A stretch of 64,000 bases of DNA, taken from positions 7,322,615 to 7,386,614 of the forward strand of contig NZ_CP098740.1 in assembly GCF_026167665.1 (NCBI RefSeq). Direction: 5' to 3'. A program made the position numbers and the translations under genes. Shown here one piece after another: positions 30,283 to 58,916 of the stretch (the first letter of the stretch is position 1; the number at the start of each line of letters is the position of its first letter). Origin of the DNA: Streptomyces drozdowiczii. GTDB taxonomy: Bacteria; Actinomycetota; Actinomycetes; Streptomycetales; Streptomycetaceae. The notes under the pieces are model-generated. The model had not been told where the DNA came from, did not search any database, and was given only the letters and a program-made list of their open reading frames with translations.

Positions 30283-30966
30283 ATGACCGCACGTCCGTAC
30301 GTCATACTCTCCGCTGCCATGTCGGTCGACGGCTACCTGGACGACGCCAGCCCTCAGCGGCTGCGCCTGTCCAACGCGGCCGACTTCGACCGCGTTGACC
30401 AGGTCCGCGCGGAGTCCGACGCCATCCTGATCGGTGCGACGACCATGCGGAAGGACAACCCGCGCCTGCTGGTCAACAGCGAGGAACGCAGGGCTCAGCG
30501 CGTTGCCGAGGGCAAGCCTGCCTACCCGCTCAAGGTCACGGTCACCCGGACCGGGGACCTCTCCGCTGACCTCAACTTCTGGCACCACGGCGGCCCGAAA
30601 CTGGTCTTCACTGTCGATGACGCAGTGGAGAAAGTGCGCGCCACGCTCGACGGCCTGGCCGACGTCGTCAGCGTCGGCCCGGAACTCGATTGGGGCCTGG
30701 TCCTCGATGAGCTCGGGCGCCGTGGAATCGGCCGACTCATGGTGGAGGGCGGCGGCACGATCCACACCCAGCTCATGGCCGCAGACCTCGCCGACGAAGT
30801 GCACCTCGCCATCGCACCCCTGCTGGTCGGTCAGCCGGAGGCGGCACGCTTCCTGGCCGCCGCCGACTATCCCGGCGGAACGACGGCCCGGATGAAGGTG
30901 CTGGAGGTCCGGGCGATCGACGACGTCGTCTTCGTCCGCTACTCCCCGAAGGAGCGCACCGCCTGA
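30283..30966 (+). CDS. RibD C-terminal-type (DHFR-like) reductase (227 aa)
   Basis: The ATG at 30283 (MTARPYVILSAAMSVDGYL) is preferred. The fold is that of the RibD C-terminal reductase: PYVILSAAMSVDGYLDD, ILIGATTMRKDNPRLLV, LRRRGIGRLMVEGGGT-type motif (RRGIGRLMVEGGGTIHTQ) and LADEVHLAIAPLLVG. Such enzymes reduce the ribosyl group of a pyrimidine with NADPH in riboflavin or deazapurine pathways. The matching deaminase is encoded separately next door (TGATG overlap), i.e. a split RibD. No other riboflavin gene is present, so the product is unknown. Confidence 0.8.
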   Translation: MTARPYVILSAAMSVDGYLDDASPQRLRLSNAADFDRVDQVRAESDAILIGATTMRKDNPRLLVNSEERRAQRVAEGKPAYPLKVTVTRTGDLSADLNFWHHGGPKLVFTVDDAVEKVRATLDGLADVVSVGPELDWGLVLDELGRRGIGRLMVEGGGTIHTQLMAADLADEVHLAIAPLLVGQPEAARFLAAADYPGGTTARMKVLEVRAIDDVVFVRYSPKERTA

Positions 30967-31447
30967 TGTACGCCCCCGACCGAGCCCAGGACCTGCGCTG
31001 GATGCAGCGTGCGATCGACCTCGCCATGCTGTGCCCTCCGGCTCCCGGCGCCTACTCGGTCGGAGCGGTCATCGTTGGCGAGGACGGCACCGAGTTGGCG
31101 TCCGGCTACTCCCGCGCGACCGGCCCCGCGAGCACGCGGAGGAAGTCGCCCTCGCCCAACTCCCCCAGGGCGACCCGCGCCTCGCGGGTGCGACGATCTA
31201 CAGCACGCTGGAGCCCTGCTCCCAGCGCAGCGCCTCCCGTACGCCCTGCGCGTACCGAATCCTCGAGGCTGGCATCCCGCGCGTCGTCATCGCTTGGCGT
31301 GAGCCGAGCCTGTTCGTCGACGACTGCGTCGGCTACGAGCAGCTGGTGGAGGCCGGAGTGACTGTCGTGGAGCTGCCCGAGTTGGCGGCGGCCGCGAAGG
31401 CGACCAACTCCCACCTGCCGGGTCTGGGCGAGGAGGGGTCCCGGTGA
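30966..31447 (+). pseudogene. RibD-like/CMP deaminase-type protein, frame broken in a C run
   Basis: From the ATG overlapping the reductase stop, the N-terminal half reads MQRAIDLAMLCPPAPGAYSV and GAVIVGEDGTELASGYSRATG. At the CCCC run near 31126 the frame is lost. One more C gives PREHAEEVALAQL (zinc ligand His plus catalytic Glu), then YSTLEPCSQRSASRTPCAYR (the PC-x-C zinc motif, here with an 8-residue spacer) and PRVVIAWREPSLFVDDC, ending at 31447. The repaired protein has about 160 residues. The function would be deamination of a pyrimidine or pteridine-like substrate together with the reductase. Confidence 0.8.
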
Positions 31448-31536
31448 ACGTCGCGCCTCTCGCAGTAGCGCCGCGCCCCCGCCGGCGATCAGATCGTGTA
31501 TCTTTCGCAGTTACAACGATCATGGAAGGCGTGGCT

Positions 31537-31842
31537 ATGTCCGACTCGGACCGCTCGCAGCGGGTGGACGCTCTGCTGAACGGCCTGCCCGAGGCTCTGC
31601 CGTCTCCGCATGTGCGCGCGAAGCTGCGCCTCGCGGCCGGCCTCACTCAGCAGGACATCGCGGACGCCGTGGGCGTGAAGAGGGTCGCGGTCACGCGGTG
31701 GGAGTTGGGCCAGACCAGCCCTCGACGCCCGCACCGCGAGGACTACTTGCGTCTCCTCAAGGGCCTCGCAGAACGCTTCCCCGAGGCTGCGAAAGCGGAT
31801 GAGGGCATGCCGACGCCGGCCTCCGAAGGGGGGTCGGGATGA
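31537..31842 (+). CDS. Free-standing HTH protein related to the N-terminal domain of Tap (101 aa)
   Basis: The ATG at 31537 is followed by DALLNGLPEALPSPHVRAKL, RLAAGLTQQDIADAVGVKRV, AVTRWELGQTSPRRPHREDY and LRLLKGLAERFPE. The Tap protein of this plasmid (48273) begins with a clearly homologous segment (REAAGLSQAQIATALDARRE, AVGNWETGKTEPRPPKRAAY, ARLLEGLTARFP). Here the domain stands alone with only a short polar tail. A hairpin array begins at its stop codon. It may be an XRE repressor, or a telomere- or hairpin-binding relative of Tap. Confidence 0.75.
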   Translation: MSDSDRSQRVDALLNGLPEALPSPHVRAKLRLAAGLTQQDIADAVGVKRVAVTRWELGQTSPRRPHREDYLRLLKGLAERFPEAAKADEGMPTPASEGGSG

Positions 31843-32242
31843 CCTAGTGGTCATCGGCCGCGCGCGCCAAGAGGCGGACTACCAATCCGCTGGCCTCGCG
31901 CGGCCCGTCTACCGACCGGCTTACCGCCGTGTCGGTCGCTCAGGTCCCAGTTACCGCTGGTCCTGAGCCACGACTCACTGAGCCGCTCATATCTCTACCG
32001 GCCCTTACCAGGGCCACCACCACCGGCCGCTTACCACGGCCACCACAGCCGCAGATCCGCACCACTGGTGTCACCGCGGGCCCCCACCACAGGGGCTTCG
32101 CGATTCACCGGGATCAAGAGAAGAGGAGAAATCTCCCCCACCTGACCCAGGTCCGCCCTCTTCTCACGAAGGAGGCGGTCCCTGACACATCCGCACATCT
32201 GAAGTCGGTCCAGCCCCAAGGGGCTCTGGTCGGTCCAGCTAT
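31838..32242. repeat. Array of hairpins with TACC-containing loops; no gene
   Basis: On the + strand at least six stem-loops show TACC in the loop. They are 31874-31890 (GCGGA-CTACCAA-TCCGC, inside a longer GGCCGCGCG/CGCGCGGCC stem), 31907-31916 (GTC-TACC-GAC), 31917-31929 (CGGC-TTACC-GCCG), 31938-31968 (loop TTACCG), 32000-32015 (GGCCCT-TACC-AGGGCC) and 32025-32041 (GGCCG-CTTACCA-CGGCC). Before them is GATGACC-TAGT-GGTCATC (31838-31855). After them come GCCCC-CACCACA-GGGGC (32080-32096), a three-way junction (32118-32165) and CCAGCCCC-AA-GGGGCTCTGG (32211-32230). The stems differ while the loop motif is kept. Possible roles: structured RNA, protein-bound single-stranded DNA hairpins as in telomeres, or an origin. 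Confidence 0.65.
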
Positions 32243-32863
32243 ATGGAGAGCAGGTCGTTTCTCATAGTGCCCGAAGTGGCGTCCCCCTGTCAGCTTGACC
32301 CCGTCCGTTTCGCCCCGGTACGGGCCACGCGATCTTCCTCCGCGTCAAGCAAGACCCATGCGATTTGGGCTATCTATTCACTTCGGCCACATAAATCCTT
32401 GGCCATTGATGTAACCAACGCGACAATCGCTGTCCGCGGCTCGAACAGCGCGGTCTGGGACGGTGACAGCGGGGCTTGCGTGGCTAGCCCCCGCATCAGC
32501 CACGTTGCCGCCATGACACCCATCTCTCATCCGTACCCGCGCGCCCGCGCCCTTCCCGGCGGCCCGTCGAGCATCTTGGCGGCACCGGCTGCCGCACGGA
32601 GCTTCCGCCCGTGGGGCGGGGCGCGATTGCAAGTTGTTGTCCGCGGGGCGGGAGGGAGAACGGGTTCCGCCGCTGCTCGGACTCTGTCCACAGGCGGCCT
32701 GCATGAGGCTGCCGGGATGATCTCTTTCTCGTGGGTGGCGAAGGTCCTCGAGCCGGTGTCCGGATCGCGTCCGGCGTGTGAGCGAGCGGCTGACCAGTTC
32801 AGGATGTGTCCTCTCCGTCAGCCGTTCGGCCCGCGTTCCTCCGGTCTGGTGCCCGCGTCGGTG
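32243..32863. other. 620-bp region without a recognisable gene
   Basis: Open frames here have no coding character. There is an AT-rich patch at about 32365-32415 (CTATCTATTCACTTCGGCC, ACATAAATCCTTGGCC) that stands out in this GC-rich DNA and could be a promoter or unwinding region next to the hairpin array. Nothing else can be supported. Confidence 0.4.
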
Positions 32864-33397
32864 TCAGCCGACCGGAGCGGGTTTCGGCACGTCTGCCTTC
32901 TTCTCGACGAAGGCCCACTGCCCGTTCGGTGCGGAGTAAGGGGTGCCGGGCGGAACGGTCATCCACAGGGATCCGTCGTCGGCGATGAGGAGCATGCCCT
33001 GCGCGTGCAGGGAGTGGATGGATTCACGGACGTCCTCCGGCTCGGATCCAAGCGATTCATGGAGATCTGCCACGAGGTCCGTGTCGCGCAGAATGAGGTC
33101 GAGGTGGCATGCTGCGGCGATCGGAATCTGAGGTCCGTAGATCGCGCGGTACTCAAGCAGGAGGCGCATGGTGGCCGCCTCTCCGGAGTCGGCGCCGAAC
33201 TCCTCGACCACCTTGTCCATCACATTCTCGTCCGTGCCGGTCGGCCTGTCCCATTCCTGGTAGTAGCAGCCAGGTGGGTTGAGGTTGTACAGGCTCCTGA
33301 TGCGAGGGGCTCCGGGAGTCCGGCGGTTCCTGGTGGCGCGGCGGGCGTTCTTCTGTGCTCTGCGGGCGCCGGGGTTCTGCTTCTTCTTCGATGCCAT
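32864..33397 (-). CDS. Hypothetical protein (177 aa)
   Basis: The start is set at the ATG at 33397 (a GTG lies three codons upstream). The first ~35 residues are very basic (MASKKKQNPGARRAQKNARR), followed by an acidic, mostly helical domain (LNPPGCYYQEWDRPTG, SGEAATMRLLLEYRAIYGPQ, LILRDTDLVADLHESLGSEP). It diverges from the replication-type gene. A basic N-terminus of the same style is seen in the gene at 35796. No family recognised. Confidence 0.6.
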   Translation of the reverse strand: MASKKKQNPGARRAQKNARRATRNRRTPGAPRIRSLYNLNPPGCYYQEWDRPTGTDENVMDKVVEEFGADSGEAATMRLLLEYRAIYGPQIPIAAACHLDLILRDTDLVADLHESLGSEPEDVRESIHSLHAQGMLLIADDGSLWMTVPPGTPYSAPNGQWAFVEKKADVPKPAPVG

Positions 33398-33474
33398 ACC
33401 CGACACAACGACTTGGATGGGTACCGGTTTCCGTCTTCCCGTCCCACAGGCCGTCCGGCCGGGGACGTGGTCCT

Positions 33475-34910
33475 GTGACGACGCGAGCCGCGGCTACCCC
33501 GGCGTCCGAGGCGACCAGGGAGTCGGTGGACGAGGTAGTCATGCTGCCAGAGCTGTGGGTGCCGGAGGCGTCGCAGTGGCTGTCGTCGTCGGCGGGGCGC
33601 ATCGCTCTGGACGGCTATTCGTGGATGCAGGCCGTGCACTGGGTGGCCGGCTCCGGGTTGTACCGGCCGCGGCGGTACCGGTCGCACGGGCCGCGCTCGT
33701 TCGGGCCGACGACGGTGCGCGTCGCCCAGGAGCTCGCGGCGCTGTTCCCGTGCCGTCCGGGGATCGACTACCTGGTGCGGCGCACCGGGCTGTCGGAGCG
33801 GTCGGTGGAATACCACCTGCAGATCCTGCGGGAGACGGGCCTGCTCGCGTGGATCGTGAAGGGCACCCGGGTCTCCGGCGGACCGGCGCAGGCCAGCGAG
33901 TTCGCGCTGATGGTGCCGGTGGAGTTCGACGTGGCGCTGGGCGTGCGTACGGCCGGTGAGGGCACCGCGCGCCGGATGACGGGGATCGCGGAAGCCGGCC
34001 GGGAGCTGATGGCGGCGCTGTCGAAGAAGGCAGCCCGCAAGGTCCGCAAGCGGCGGTCGAAGTCGTCCTCGAAGTCCCCGGCGAAGGGTGCCCGGAAGGC
34101 TGCTGACCAGGGTGTTGTGACGGCTGTTTCGGATGAGGTCCGTTGCACCCCAATGGGGGTAGTTCCCGCAGTGCTTTTTCTGCGGGAACTACCTCTCTTC
34201 CCCCTGAGAACGAGCTCGCAAGCGGGCAGAGCGATTCCCCCACCCCGAAGAAGGTCAAGTGCGGCCGCCGGCAGCTGAACGCGGTGGGGCGCCGTTTCCA
34301 GCTGGCCTCGGAGCTGATCCGCCAGGTGCCGTGGATGGGCCGCGCCGCGGTGCCCCGGATCGCCTGGATCCTCAAGGAGGTCTCCGACGCGGGCTGGACG
34401 GCCGACCAGGTAATCGCGTTTCTGGACTGCGGCGACGCCCCGGGCAGCGTCCACCGCCCGTCGGGGTTCCTCGCCGGGCGGCTGAAGGGTGCGGTGGCGC
34501 TGTGGCCGACCAAGGAGGGCCGGGAGCGGGCCGTCCAGGCGTACCGGGACTCCCGGCGCGCGGAGAAGGCCCGCCACCAGGAGTGGGAGGGCGCCTGGAC
34601 GTCTCCGCGCAGTGAGTCCGTCCGCCGCCTGGTCGCCAACGCGCTCGCCCCGCAGCAGCCGCAGTACGACATCCCGGACGGCCACCAGGGCGCGGGCGAG
34701 ACCGGCCCTGATGTGCCCGGCGAGGACGAGCTCAAGGAGTTCCGGGCCACGGCCTGGCAGGAGTTCATGCTCGGCAGGCCCGACCAGGTCCTCATGACCC
34801 TCGACACCCTCGGTCCGGCCGCCGCCGAACAGATCTACGGCCCTGAGCTGGTGCAGCGCGTACGCAAGCTGGTCAGCGGCACCTCGCTGATGACCGTCGG
34901 ACGCCAGTAG
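33475..34910 (+). pseudogene. Winged-helix replication-type plasmid protein, split by a one-base shift in a G run
   Basis: The first frame (GTG 33475 or ATG 33541) gives LWVPEASQWLSSSAGRIALD, SWMQAVHWVAGSGLYRPRRY and a winged helix (LVRRTGLSERSVEYHLQILR). It goes off frame at GGGGG (34155-34159), just at a strong hairpin. One extra G joins it to GSSRSAFSAGTTSLPPENEL and a second domain (LNAVGRRFQLASELIRQVPW, PRIAWILKEVSDAGWTADQV, HRPSGFLAGRLKGA) ending at 34910. The whole (~478 aa) resembles a widespread Streptomyces plasmid/telomere-proximal protein. A DciA gene follows at once, which points to a replication-initiator role. That role is inferred, not proven by motif. Confidence 0.65.
34158..34193. 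repeat. Perfect 14-bp stem-loop inside the replication-type gene
   Basis: GGTAGTTCCCGCAG (34158-34171) pairs perfectly with CTGCGGGAACTACC (34180-34193) across an 8-nt loop TGCTTTTT. It begins within the G run where the reading frame is lost and encodes part of the linker between the two domains. It could be an origin hairpin, a site bound by the protein, or a frameshift-stimulating structure. Confidence 0.7.
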
Positions 34911-34918
34911 GAGGCGTG

Positions 34919-35668
34919 ATGACCGAGACCCTGAACACCACCGCCAGCAGCAGCGAGCAGCCGGCCTCGGAGCTGTCGGGCGTCGACTTGGCACGGGTCG
35001 CGCTGCACCAGGCACGCGAGCTCCAGGGCCTGGTGGCCGACCGGGCCTGGGACGTCCCGGCCGCCGGCGGAAGCATCCTGGACCAGTGGCCGGCCACTGC
35101 GGCCGCGCTCTCGCCGAAGCTGGCCGCGCACGCCCAAGCGGTCGCCTTCCACGCGGAGACCGGGCAGCTGGACCTGCGCCCGGACTCGCCCGCGTACGCC
35201 ACGCAGCTGCGCCTGATTAGCTCTCAGATCGTCGCTGCGGCGAACGACGCGGTCGGCACCCAGGCAGTGCGCACCGTTCGGGTCCTGGCCGTGGGCGCGA
35301 CGGCCCCGGCACCCCGTGAGGCGGGTGCGGCCCCGACGGCGGCCGCGCCCGAGGCACTGGTGAAGACTCGCGACATGGCCCCACCCGGCTTCCACCGCGC
35401 GCTCACCGCCCACCAGGCCGTCCCGCGTGTCCAACTCGTCAGCTCGGGCGTCACCGAGGCGATCGAACGGCAGAACCAGGCGATGCGCGAACGCAGCCGC
35501 CGGGCGTTTCCCGAACCCGACGTCATCGCGGACGACGCGCCAGCCCCGATCGAGCAGACCCGCGCGCAGCGACGCCGCCAGGCTGCGGCGACCGAGGCCG
35601 CCGCCCTGCGCCGGACTCGTGCGGAACGGGCCCGGCAGGACCACAACAGCCCAGAGTGCTTGCGGTAG
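34919..35668 (+). CDS. Plasmid-encoded DciA-like (DUF721) helicase-loader homologue (249 aa)
   Basis: The ATG at 34919 has AGGAGG four bases upstream, and the stop of the previous gene overlaps this site. SGVDLARVALHQARE and the following domain (VADRAWDVPAAGGSILDQWP, LDLRPDSPAYATQLRLISSQ, IVAAANDAVGTQAVRTVRVL) match the DciA fold encoded beside dnaA/recF in actinobacteria. DciA helps load or activate the replicative helicase DnaB. The long Ala/Arg-rich C-terminal extension is additional. Placed directly behind the winged-helix protein, it suggests a two-gene replication module recruiting host DnaB. Confidence 0.75.
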   Translation: MTETLNTTASSSEQPASELSGVDLARVALHQARELQGLVADRAWDVPAAGGSILDQWPATAAALSPKLAAHAQAVAFHAETGQLDLRPDSPAYATQLRLISSQIVAAANDAVGTQAVRTVRVLAVGATAPAPREAGAAPTAAAPEALVKTRDMAPPGFHRALTAHQAVPRVQLVSSGVTEAIERQNQAMRERSRRAFPEPDVIADDAPAPIEQTRAQRRRQAAATEAAALRRTRAERARQDHNSPECLR

Positions 35669-47833: not shown

Positions 47834-48272
47834 AACGCAGCGTGCTGGTTGCTGGAACCGGAGGAAGCGGCAGCCGGGTGGATCCGGCGGGTGCTGGCAG
47901 CGGCCGGGGACTCTCGCCCGCCGTCAAGCTGCTGGTCAACAAGCTCGTGCGGTAGGGCGTTCTATGCACACACCGCAGTGACGGAGCCGCCGGATCCACT
48001 GGCGGAACTTCAGGCTGCATGTGTCCTCGACCATGCGGGGGCAGTAGATCGTCGACTACCGCCCAGTGCCACCAGTAGTCGTGCGGGTTCAGCTCTGCGC
48101 CGCCGACCACCTCCCAGGTCAGACGCTGAGCCAGCTCCGAGTCGGCCGTCCCGCCTTGCTCCGCGAAGAACACCCGCTCCACGTCCCGCTACCGCTACAT
48201 GCGCGATTCATGCGCGATTAAATGCGCGAACGAAAGCGCGATCGAGTAGGCTGTCTATTGGAGGTGACCTCT
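47834..48272. promoter_or_regulatory. Upstream region of tap-tpg with 11-bp-spaced direct repeats
   Basis: ATGCGCGATT at 48199-48208 and 48210-48219, ATGCGCGAA at 48222-48230 and AAGCGCGATC at about 48234-48243 form a head-to-tail array. The spacing is about one helical turn, just before the tap ribosome site GGAGGTGA. Tap carries an N-terminal HTH, so autoregulation through these repeats is likely. The rest of the gap (47834-48190) has only weak leftward coding character and no supported gene. Confidence 0.6.
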
Positions 48273-50477
48273 GTGTCCACTGAGAACGAGCTGTTCAGCG
48301 CTGTCGATGCGCTGCTGGAGCAAGTCGCGCAGGACGACCTGCCGGTCCCTGCGGAGCGCAAGCGTCTGCGGGAGGCGGCGGGGCTGAGTCAGGCGCAGAT
48401 CGCCACGGCGCTGGATGCCCGCCGGGAGGCGGTGGGGAACTGGGAGACCGGCAAGACCGAGCCGCGGCCGCCGAAGCGTGCCGCGTACGCTCGGCTGCTG
48501 GAGGGTCTCACCGCCCGCTTCCCCGCCCCGGTCGCCGACGCGCCCGCCGCACCCCCGGTGCCGGTGGTTCCGGAGGCGTTCACCGGCCCCGCTCCCGTTC
48601 CCGCCCCGGCGGCCGAAGCACCGGCGGCACCGGCCCCGGCTGCCGCCGTACGCCCGGCGCCCGCCGCGTCGTCGCGGCGCCCGGGTGCGAAGAAGACGGT
48701 GGCGAAGAAGACCATGGCGGCCGCGACCGCTGACGTCGACCCGCGCTTCGAGAACGGCCCGCTCGCGGTCATCGACGTCGACGCCGACGGGCAGGTGTCG
48801 GCGTACTGCATCGGCGGCCTCGTCCTGGACGTGCCCGCCAAGACGATCCCCGCGCTGGTCGACTGGACGCTGACCGAAGCCCGGCTCGGTCAGGCCCGCC
48901 TGCACCGCAACGGCCGCGACGCCGACCCGATCCTCGTCCTCACCGCAGCCGCCCTGGAACGCTTCGGCCTGCCCACCGCACTGTCGGAGGAGGAGCGGCA
49001 CGCTGGCCGGCTCCCGGCCGGCCACAAGGTGGTCAAGCAGATCGAGCGCGCGGGCCTCCAGATGACCCAGCGCGGCTTCGGCCCATGGGCCCGGCTCTAC
49101 CGCGACCCCGAAGGCTCCCGGCGGCGCTGCGTCCAGCTGTGCATCCTGCCCTGGCACGCCTTGGACGTCCGCGAGTGGGGGCGCAAGGACGACCCGGAAC
49201 TGCTGCTGACGATGCACCCGGCCGACCTGGTCCAGTACCTCGGTCTGTACGCAGCCCGGGTGATGACCCCGCGCGGCAGCACGGCGACGACCGGCCTGGA
49301 GCTCATGACCGCGCTGCGCCCGCCGACCCGCGCAGAGAAGAACCCGGCGACCGGCGACTTCGAGCGGGCCTTTAACGACGACGCGATCACCGCCCTCTAC
49401 AAGGTGGTGGACTGCGAGGTCCCCGACGAGCACCCGATCCTGAAGGGCAAGTTCGCCCGGCACCACATGCGCACCCCGGCAGAGATGCTGATGGAGGAGC
49501 CCTACGACTGGTGCCGGCCGCTCACCGATGAGGAGTGCGCCAACCCCTACCTGGTCGTCGTCGACCTCAACATGTCCTTCGCCGCCGCCGCGAACGGCCT
49601 GGTCGTCGGGTTGAACGGGCCAACCCACCTGACCGGCAACCCCAAGTTCGACCCGGCGCTGCCCGGCTCGTGGCTGGTCGACCTCTCCCACGTCGACCTG
49701 TCCCGCGCCCGGGTCAACGGCCGCACCGTTGACGGCTCCCGGCTCCCGAGCCCGTTCACGCCGAAGGGCGACACCCCCGAGGGCCCGGCCTGGTACGCCA
49801 CGCCCACCGTGCAGTACGCGGTGGAGCTCGGCTTCGACGTCGCACCGATCGAGGCATACGTCCGCACCCAGACCGGCCGCTACCTCGACTCCTGGTACAA
49901 GCGGCTGCGCGACGCCTACGTCGCCACGATGGCCGACATGGGTGTCACCACCGACCTCACCGGGACCGAGTTCCTCGAGGCGATGGCGCGGCGCAAGCAG
50001 GTCGACCCAGCGATGGCACTGTTGGAGACCGCGATCAAGGCGACGGCGAAGGGCGCGATCGGCAAGCTGCGCCAGCGCTCGCGGGGGCAGGTGCCGTACT
50101 ACGAGCCGTACCCGGCGTTGGAGCGGGTGAACTGGCGCCCGGACATCCGGGCCGCCGTGCTCGCCAACCAGCGGGTTGGCCTGCACCGCAAGCTGATGAA
50201 GACGGCGGCCGCCGCCGACCTGTACCCGGTCGCGATCGGCACCGACGCGATCGTCTACCCCTCGCCCGGGCCGTCCCCGCTGGACGTCCTGCCGACCACG
50301 CCCGAGGGCAAGCCGGTGCCCGGCGGCTTCCGGCTCGGTGTTTCGCCCGGGATGGTCAAGCACCAGGGCACCCAGACCGTCCTGTGGGCGGAGCAGCAGT
50401 TCGAGGAGCGCGGCGGCGTCTTCAACATCTCCAACCTCATCAAGACCGCCGACCCGACAGCCGGAGAAGGGGAGTAG
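48273..50477 (+). CDS. tap: Telomere-associated protein Tap (734 aa)
   Basis: The GTG at 48273 follows GGAGGTGA. The length (734) is close to that of known Streptomyces Tap proteins (~740). The N-terminus is an XRE-type HTH (REAAGLSQAQIATALDARRE, AVGNWETGKTEPRPPKRAAY), followed by an Ala/Pro linker. The long conserved body begins with DPRFENGPLAVIDVDADGQV and SAYCIGGLVLDVPAKTIPAL, and its adjacency to tpg (3-bp gap) is the family hallmark. Tap binds the folded 3' overhang hairpins of Streptomyces telomeres and recruits the terminal protein for end patching. The pair implies that this replicon has protein-capped linear ends outside the window. Confidence 0.85.
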   Translation: MSTENELFSAVDALLEQVAQDDLPVPAERKRLREAAGLSQAQIATALDARREAVGNWETGKTEPRPPKRAAYARLLEGLTARFPAPVADAPAAPPVPVVPEAFTGPAPVPAPAAEAPAAPAPAAAVRPAPAASSRRPGAKKTVAKKTMAAATADVDPRFENGPLAVIDVDADGQVSAYCIGGLVLDVPAKTIPALVDWTLTEARLGQARLHRNGRDADPILVLTAAALERFGLPTALSEEERHAGRLPAGHKVVKQIERAGLQMTQRGFGPWARLYRDPEGSRRRCVQLCILPWHALDVREWGRKDDPELLLTMHPADLVQYLGLYAARVMTPRGSTATTGLELMTALRPPTRAEKNPATGDFERAFNDDAITALYKVVDCEVPDEHPILKGKFARHHMRTPAEMLMEEPYDWCRPLTDEECANPYLVVVDLNMSFAAAANGLVVGLNGPTHLTGNPKFDPALPGSWLVDLSHVDLSRARVNGRTVDGSRLPSPFTPKGDTPEGPAWYATPTVQYAVELGFDVAPIEAYVRTQTGRYLDSWYKRLRDAYVATMADMGVTTDLTGTEFLEAMARRKQVDPAMALLETAIKATAKGAIGKLRQRSRGQVPYYEPYPALERVNWRPDIRAAVLANQRVGLHRKLMKTAAAADLYPVAIGTDAIVYPSPGPSPLDVLPTTPEGKPVPGGFRLGVSPGMVKHQGTQTVLWAEQQFEERGGVFNISNLIKTADPTAGEGE

Positions 50478-58313: not shown

Positions 58314-58916
58314 GTGACCGAAGAAGAGAAGGCAGAGAAGGCAGCGCAGGCGGCCAACACGCGCGCCAGGTTCATGGAGGGCCTCGCCCGCGTGGAGCGC
58401 ACCCTGTTCACCCGGCCCGCGCCGAAATCCGCGCGAGCGCAGATGAAATTCCTTCGCACGCGGGAGAGGGGCTCCACCAAGAGCCTGGCGGCCCGTCTGG
58501 GCGTCTCCCGCAAGACGGTGCAGCGCTACCTCTCGGGCGCCTCCAGCAAGCCGAACAGGCGCCTCCGGGAGGCGTTGGTCCAAGAGACCGAGTCGGAGTG
58601 GCAACCGCAGGTCAAAGCACAGGCGAGGCAGCACGCGAGTACCTCGGGAGGGCTCGTCATCAGCTTCCGGGCCACCCTCGGCTTCACCGCGAACGGGTCC
58701 TCGGACGACGGCCGGGTGCGGGACCTCAGCATCGCCGTTTCGCCCTCCCACGCTGCCCTCATCCTCGCCGCGCAGGAGGATGGTGCGACGGACGCAGCAC
58801 TGCACGATGCCGTCGCTGAGGCCATAGCGGACGCCTATTTCCGTCAAGGTGGTGGAGGACGAGCGAACCTGAAGGTGAACTTCACGGACGTACAGCGGCT
58901 GGACATAGCGTTTTAG
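58314..58916 (+). CDS. Second, solitary terminal-protein (Tpg) homologue with Ser at the presumed priming site (200 aa)
   Basis: From a GTG at 58314 it shows the whole Tpg layout: RTLFTRPAPKSARAQMKFLR, HTH SLAARLGVSRKTVQRYLSGA, SEWQPQVKAQARQHAS, SFRATLGFTANGSSDDGRV and KVNFTDVQRLDIAF. It is clearly paralogous to the Tpg at 50481. It differs in having a longer, charged N-terminus (an ATG at 58374 is an alternative start), no tap beside it, and GSSDD where the other protein has GSTDD. It may be a functional Ser-primed variant, a regulator, or a protein adapted to different telomeres. Confidence 0.85.
   Translation: MTEEEKAEKAAQAANTRARFMEGLARVERTLFTRPAPKSARAQMKFLRTRERGSTKSLAARLGVSRKTVQRYLSGASSKPNRRLREALVQETESEWQPQVKAQARQHASTSGGLVISFRATLGFTANGSSDDGRVRDLSIAVSPSHAALILAAQEDGATDAALHDAVAEAIADAYFRQGGGGRANLKVNFTDVQRLDIAF

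Follow-up and report, generated by a model that had tools for sequence, protein, structure and literature searches.

A row of small hairpins that follows a free-standing helix-turn-helix (HTH) gene in Streptomyces drozdowiczii recurs, as a conserved element, on Streptomyces plasmids. Its structure is under selection, its loops share a short word within an array, that word switches nearly simultaneously in several loops between related plasmids, and it varies independently of the HTH protein, the adjacent Rep-like protein and the telomere-associated protein Tap. We interpret the array as a structured element of the replication locus of Streptomyces linear plasmids, whose iterated loop words are read by a partner acting in trans, and give this reading a probability of about 0.5. 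Taken separately, a role in replication is very probable, reading of the word in trans is likely, and action as RNA rather than as DNA is somewhat favored.

The array in the window and its gene neighborhood

The window, i.e., the whole 64,000-nucleotide stretch that was analyzed, covers the final 64,000 bases of a genome assembled as one contig (7,386,614 bases), and it carries genes typical of linear plasmids: a two-piece Rep-like gene, a DciA-family gene, Tap and Tpg. The genes considered here are all on the + strand:

31537..31842, +: small HTH gene, 101 aa, relative of the Tap N-terminal domain (ORF list, profile and sequence comparison)
33355..34278, +: Rep-like gene, piece 1, matching residues 14-232 of the 482-aa homolog at locus L011
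34143..34910, +: Rep-like gene, piece 2, in another frame, matching residues 230-482 of the L011 homolog
34916..35668, +: DciA-family gene
48222..50477, +: Tap (profile match)
58314..58916, +: Tpg (profile match)

The Rep-like gene of the window occupies overlapping frames across 33355-34910, with the frame shifting near 34,145, whereas the L011 homolog is a single 482-aa frame. Unless a sequencing error underlies it, this change of frame makes the window copy of the array a probable linear-plasmid relic at the end of the chromosome. A deaminase-like gene at 30966-31447 is likewise spread over overlapping frames (30966-31361 and 31031-31447), which may point to decay of the relic plasmid region or to errors in the assembly. 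A telomere-like hairpin row is absent at the contig end (63740-64000), though Tap and Tpg are encoded nearby, and the true replicon end may be missing from the assembly.

The array starts within the last codons of the HTH gene and extends to about 32,140, and a conserved stretch continues onward to about 32,370. Its elements and the sites to its right are as follows, with a strand given where one is assigned:

31810..31837: H0, CCGAC/GTCGG hairpin over the last codons of the HTH gene (sequence, 64-locus alignment); kept in homologs that lack the HTH gene
31838..31855: H1, GATGACC-TAGT-GGTCATC, spanning the HTH stop codon (sequence, covariation)
31856..31905: H2, outer stem GGCCGCGCG/CGCGCGGCC, inner hairpin 31874-31890, loop CTACCAA (hairpin scan, covariation)
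31912..31935: H3, outer stem CCGAC/GTCGG, inner hairpin 31917-31929, loop TTACC (hairpin scan, covariation)
31938..31968: H4, outer stem GCTCAGG/CCTGAGC, inner hairpin 31947-31960, loop TTACCG (hairpin scan, covariation)
31970..31986: H5, loop CACTG, usually without the word (covariation)
32000..32015: H6, GGCCCT-TACC-AGGGCC (hairpin scan)
32025..32041: H7, GGCCG-CTTACCA-CGGCC (hairpin scan)
32080..32096: H8, GCCCC-CACCACA-GGGGC (sequence)
32125..32136: GGAGAAATCTCC hairpin, terminator-like if read on the minus strand
32263..32293, -: CATAGTGC box with TGTCAG 18 bp beyond; a leftward reading would give a candidate -10 (CACTAT) and -35 (CTGACA)
32684..32692, +: DnaA-box-like CTGTCCACA (sequence and consensus; box as defined in PMC3583192)

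The sequence-only reading of the window had counted at least six stem-loops with TACC in the loop within about 170 bp. Five non-overlapping TACC-loop hairpins with a stem of at least 4 bp were found in 31838-32240, within 168 bp (31874-31890, 31917-31929, 31947-31960, 32000-32015 and 32025-32041), but the sixth (31907-31916) counts only if a stem of just 3 bp is accepted. The same reading had continued the array through further hairpins, and these do exist beyond the TACC set; the boundaries it drew were too narrow, with H0 lying inside the HTH gene and roughly 100 bp to the right of 32242 being conserved as well. At least five TACC hairpins occurred in 0 of 400 dinucleotide shuffles, and when all 256 four-letter words were scored in 60 shuffles, none was found in more than two hairpins. 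The + strand of the entire window holds 12 TACC hairpins with a stem of at least 4 bp, of which 5 are in the array, and TTACC as such is not enriched window-wide (26 matches vs 21.0 expected). RNA folding of 31830-32270 gave z scores of -5.5 (+ strand) and -4.5 (- strand). A search of Rfam 15 found nothing in 31300-32700 of the window, even with E values up to 5 admitted, and nothing that reached the gathering score in five homologous loci.

The tail of the HTH protein (TPAS..GSG; 31804-31842) overlaps H0 and H1, and the DNA there is similar even where the HTH gene is shorter or missing; this odd protein tail may reflect nucleic-acid structure. By eye, the linkers ahead of the stems often resemble GCANNACC in several loop classes (e.g., L012 10470-10620), and such linkers are a possible second, constant signal.

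Distribution of the array and the associated presumed replication genes

A distant nucleotide search of PLSDB with the HTH gene plus array matched 110 records and with the array alone 92 records, all Streptomyces, and two further array types used as queries matched 104 and 100 records. The plasmids pFRL2, SAP1 and pSCL2 were among the matches, pFRL1 was matched with another query, and the replicon was linear in all 17 records inspected. A covariance model built on hairpins one and two, applied to genomes under strict filters that lose weak matches, hit 31 of 392 Streptomyces genomes and, in a class-wide draw, 4 of 393 genomes, all from one genus among 122 genera. In pFRL2, which is 93.9 kb long, the array lies at 61.6 kb, and in the other records retrieved it is internal too.

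The typical gene order is HTH, array, Rep-like gene and DciA, with Tap and Tpg farther right in several loci. DciA was found downstream in 41 of 53 loci, a set in which some loci are truncated where their contig stops. The HTH gene is upstream of the array in 25 of the 32 model-found loci, a set that includes the window and loci already known from other searches, and is missing in the remaining 7; the proposed linkage of the array to the small HTH gene is therefore frequent. Sixteen of 54 loci (L055-L070), with weak HTH matches, were left out, and L003-L010 stand outside the 45-sequence set described below. One linear plasmid (NZ_CP109052.1) contains two arrays with identical loop words (L114 at 24.8 kb and L115 at 55.4 kb), each between its own HTH gene and its own helix-turn-helix gene. 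NZ_CP108357.1 (L116) has two equal-scoring array matches, 62.7 kb from either end, as expected if the pair lies in terminal inverted repeats.

The proteins that we label Rep-like are annotated as helix-turn-helix or hypothetical proteins, never as replication proteins, and their helix-turn-helix matches are below Pfam cut-offs or lacking. Similarity divides them into one group of 41, with short (480-620 aa) and long (700-900 aa) forms, and another of 10; since both groups are found beside the array, the array accompanies a replication-like neighborhood and not one Rep type. In eight annotated loci, 62 of the 63 genes in the outer left blocks, which were picked after inspection, run leftward, and the Rep-like and DciA genes run rightward. 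GC skew showed no sign change at the array in 44 loci. Altogether, the Rep-like gene, DciA, the DnaA-box-like site and the diverging genes suggest an internal replication locus.

According to PMC3212956, the pFRL2 origin was cloned as a 2.2-kb HindIII fragment. The HindIII spacings in sequenced pFRL2 are 114, 7631, 46205, 19133 and 6005 bp, and the terminal pieces measure about 11.5 and 3.3 kb; with no 2.2-kb fragment among them the published origin clone cannot be placed. Zhang et al. (2009, FEMS Microbiol Lett), on the replication loci of Streptomyces linear plasmids, and a 2010 paper that reportedly deals with two origins of pFRL1 may each have noted this non-coding sequence. A literature search, with most subscription journals outside its reach, returned no description of the element or of jointly switching loop words.

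Stem covariation and folding

Covariation was measured in an alignment (A2) of the first five hairpins from 45 loci with a manually curated structure. Bases paired in 92.3% of 1884 cells, compared with 28-41% for control structures slid along the alignment. Double changes were seen at 12 pairs, and 108 cells were double-changed vs 40.3 ± 4.5 in shuffles; an uncurated consensus fold contained 28 pairs, 6 of them with double changes. As examples, A-T to G-C and C-G to G-C replacements in H1 each occur in 15 of the 45 loci, and T-A to C-G in H4 occurs in 14 of 45. The proposal from the window alone that stems and loop are both under selection is borne out by this covariation, and relatives that might have kept the stems without compensation instead show compensatory changes across the 45 homologs. 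Furthermore, all 45 arrays fold better than their shuffles on both strands, with mean z scores of -4.3 and -4.8; the minus-strand z was lower in 28 of 45 arrays (p 0.01, uncorrected for relatedness).

Loop words are common within plasmids and differ between them

Different hairpins of one plasmid have a loop word in common, and this word is not the same in every plasmid: the window has TACC, and others have TAACC, TGACA, TTGGCA, TCGCA, GGCAA, GCCA or YATCA. Arrays with mixed words occur in SAP1, L013, L019 and L030, and the array of L052 is chimeric. The longest common stretch exceeded permuted values between the loops of H2 and H4 (3.06 vs 2.35 ± 0.13; 33 distinct combinations, p 5e-5), between those of H2 and H3 (4.45 vs 3.53 ± 0.21; 29 combinations, p 1e-4) and between H2 and the loops of the second half (4.13 vs 2.90 ± 0.14; 40 combinations, p 2e-4). 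The word is also directional, with 162 matches to the word in the arrays of its own class and 2 to its reverse complement (overlapping words counted separately).

Among close relatives, four to six loops are altered at the same position. From L036 to L035, the base preceding GAC is altered in 6 of 7 word loops (to G in four and C in two) with stems nearly unchanged, and from L017 to L011, TACC becomes AACC (T to A) in four loops. Because homologous hairpins keep their stems while their loops change, simple duplication of a hairpin does not explain the common word, and concerted changes of the word while the covarying stems stay intact point to a reader. Within 5.5 kb of the array, the word and its complement showed no enrichment in their own class, and no class-specific k-mers other than the word were obvious as candidates for an internal receptor.

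Six pairs of co-resident arrays were available for comparison. Three pairs differ in word (pFRL1/pFRL2, NBC_01562 p3/p4 and S. goshikiensis B-1662 p2/p3), two have the same word (S. griseofuscus pSGRIFU2/3 with TGAC, and G208 C5/C7, both TGGC-like), and the words of the NBC_00909 pair are not comparable, one array being truncated. The loop word as a strict incompatibility tag is not supported.

The proteins encoded nearby do not track the word

The HTH protein matches NCBIfam telomere_Tap (NF047542) at the N-terminus only (E 2.3e-22, 79.5 bits); the family cut-off is 600 bits, so the 101-aa protein is not a full-length Tap. It is 47% identical to the Tap of the window over 81 residues, in agreement with the relationship to the Tap N-terminal domain that had been recognized from the window. 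A reading of the loop sequence by this Tap-like HTH is not supported: the recognition helix is almost identical across loop classes, L017 and L011 have near-identical HTHs with different words, and the HTH is absent at 7 of 32 loci. The HTH protein may bind the structure of the array irrespective of the word.

The Rep-like protein was rejected as the reader since proteins that are 98% identical (L035, L032) or 86% identical (L023, L025) accompany different words. Tap was likewise rejected, because the Tap of L020 (TGAC loops) and that of the window (TACC loops) are 92% identical over 619 aligned residues. The reader of the word may be an unlinked partner or the opposite strand, or may not exist. 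We put forward tentatively, at less than even odds, that the array is a new kind of nucleic-acid address, in which a conserved row of hairpins mostly showing one word would travel as a recombining cassette and be retuned, several loops together, by an unlinked, coevolving reader.

The folded strand and alternative explanations

In the curated stems, read on the plus strand, A.C mismatches occupied 98 cells at 22 positions and G.T mismatches 20 cells at 10 positions; minus two near-constant positions, the A.C count was 45 cells. On the minus strand the A.C mismatches turn into G.U, which by calculation raises the share of standard pairs to about 96% of cells. Mismatch origins placed on the tree numbered 29 for A.C and 9 for G.T, where the unpaired columns supply a background share of 46% (p 1.7e-4). 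A hold-out of 19 further non-redundant loci gave 31 to 8, and 13 to 8 without the two near-constant positions (p 0.11). A cruder hairpin scan showed no strand asymmetry (G.T 24 and A.C 31; shuffles 16.9 and 21.9), its stems of 7 or 8 pairs had the opposite lean (16 to 8 and 11 to 2), and H0 has plus-strand G.T pairs in one lineage. The mismatch asymmetry moderately favors a folded minus strand.

At the right edge of the array, the CATAGTGC box is invariant or nearly so in 42 loci, which were chosen from the 45 by a near match to the box, and its conservation is therefore partly built in; TGTCAG follows 18 bp beyond in 31 of the 42. The two motifs possibly form a candidate leftward -10/-35 promoter, judged from their letters, and a simple promoter scan called nothing at the box. 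Entropies by codon position in the conserved stretch right of the array are 0.77, 0.82 and 1.00, and an in-frame start is missing nearby in several homologs; a coding reading was set aside on these grounds, and the stretch is provisionally treated as non-coding.

A leftward array RNA could act as antisense control, pairing through its loops with a rightward transcript that passes from the HTH gene through the array toward the rep-like gene. Its partner would then come from the other strand of the very same DNA, and the failure of the neighboring proteins to track the word would be accounted for; the folding of both strands, the directionality of the word, the lack of an enriched partner site within 5.5 kb and a conserved box readable as a leftward promoter all fit. 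However, pairing position by position gives no reason for one word across the hairpins, and two co-resident pairs have the same word; we consider this explanation possible and unlikely. No more probable is an element that acts as single-stranded DNA, in which the minus strand, exposed as the lagging-strand template beside an origin, would form hairpins that load primase, helicase or the Rep-like protein. Streptomyces telomeres already use rows of DNA hairpins with common loops (PMC7205883), the mismatch asymmetry favors the minus strand, and the Rep-like gene and DciA adjoin, but the fork direction is inferred and the 98% identical Rep-like proteins of L035 and L032 accompany different words.

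Somewhat less likely again is a plus-strand 3' UTR or leader RNA of the HTH gene that would regulate the HTH or rep-like mRNA, with the word binding a protein or small RNA. The overlap of H0 and H1 with the end of the HTH gene and the upstream position of that gene in most model-found loci are consistent with this explanation, but H0 and H1 are retained at the 7 loci where the gene is missing and the mismatch asymmetry points to the minus strand.

Comparison with known systems

Antisense-RNA plasmids of the ColE1/R1 kind and sponge RNAs of the CsrB/RsmZ type each resemble the array in part. In ColE1/R1 each loop has its own sequence; loop sequence is a changeable specificity element there as in the array, but the array's loops carry a common word. 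CsrB/RsmZ-type RNAs present many hairpins with the fixed loop motif GGA to a multivalent partner, and the array similarly displays one motif on many hairpins, but its motif switches between plasmids and it has no Rfam match. Iteron plasmids, like the array, repeat a short word in one direction beside a rep gene; dissimilar from iterons, the word of the array is about 4-6 nt long, is set in the loops of differing covarying stems, and does not track the Rep-like protein, i.e., the repeat is not matched to its own Rep protein.

Extrachromosomal mycobacterial prophages use RNA-based origins beside parABS and without repA, according to PMC7157519. These origins are likewise actinobacterial non-coding regions of a few hundred bases, structured or transcribed, essential for replication and antisense to neighboring genes, but they lack a rep gene, whereas the array is adjoined by a rep-like gene and DciA and in this respect departs from them.

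The nearest architecture is that of Streptomyces telomeres, in which, per PMC7205883, stems of variable sequence with compensatory changes all end, within a given telomere, in the same type of loop (GGA, CTTG or GCA), and the loop types switch between replicons and go with terminal-protein types. The array shares the row of stems, the single loop type and the compensatory changes, but telomeres are terminal and their archetype has 3-4 nt loops and a terminal palindrome I, whereas the array is internal, shows no such palindrome, and has linker-spaced hairpins with loops mostly of 4-7 nt. A telomere, internal or fossil, to which a Tap relative binds, as the sequence-only reading had suggested and as the GC-rich hairpin row and the Tap-related HTH might be taken to indicate, is highly improbable, since pFRL2 carries classic telomere ends that start CCCGCGGAGCGGG and have loops mostly of 3 nt in addition to its internal array with other loops, CCCGCGGAGCGGG of the pFRL2 ends was not seen in the array, the place of the array before the rep-like gene is fixed across different Rep types, and neither the HTH nor Tap tracks the word.

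A proposed mechanism and its meaning for Streptomyces linear plasmids

In the reading that we prefer, the array would be a conserved non-coding part of an internal replication locus in one family of linear plasmids of Streptomyces. Roughly 8-10 hairpins would form on one strand, of which the minus strand is the likelier, and that strand would be a leftward RNA or else an exposed lagging-strand template. With a short plasmid-specific word in most loops, the array would present one site repeatedly, much as if iterons had been set into the loops of hairpins; a partner acting in trans would read the word, and this reading would control initiation by the adjacent Rep-like protein and DciA. When the specificity of the partner shifts, the loops would be expected to shift together. 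The earlier suggestions of an origin element or a multi-hairpin regulatory RNA may hold.

To our knowledge, internal initiation and its control on Streptomyces linear plasmids are poorly known. The array characterizes a large family of plasmids (as sole query it matches 92 PLSDB records, and its model hits 31 of 392 Streptomyces genomes) and is common to different Rep types, and the L036/L035 and L017/L011 pairs are natural pairs that differ mainly in their words over the compared stretch. If the array is an address of the kind tentatively put forward above, a replication locus would be recognized via folded loops and not via double-stranded iterons; and if the word is read in trans, the finding bears on the coexistence of such plasmids.
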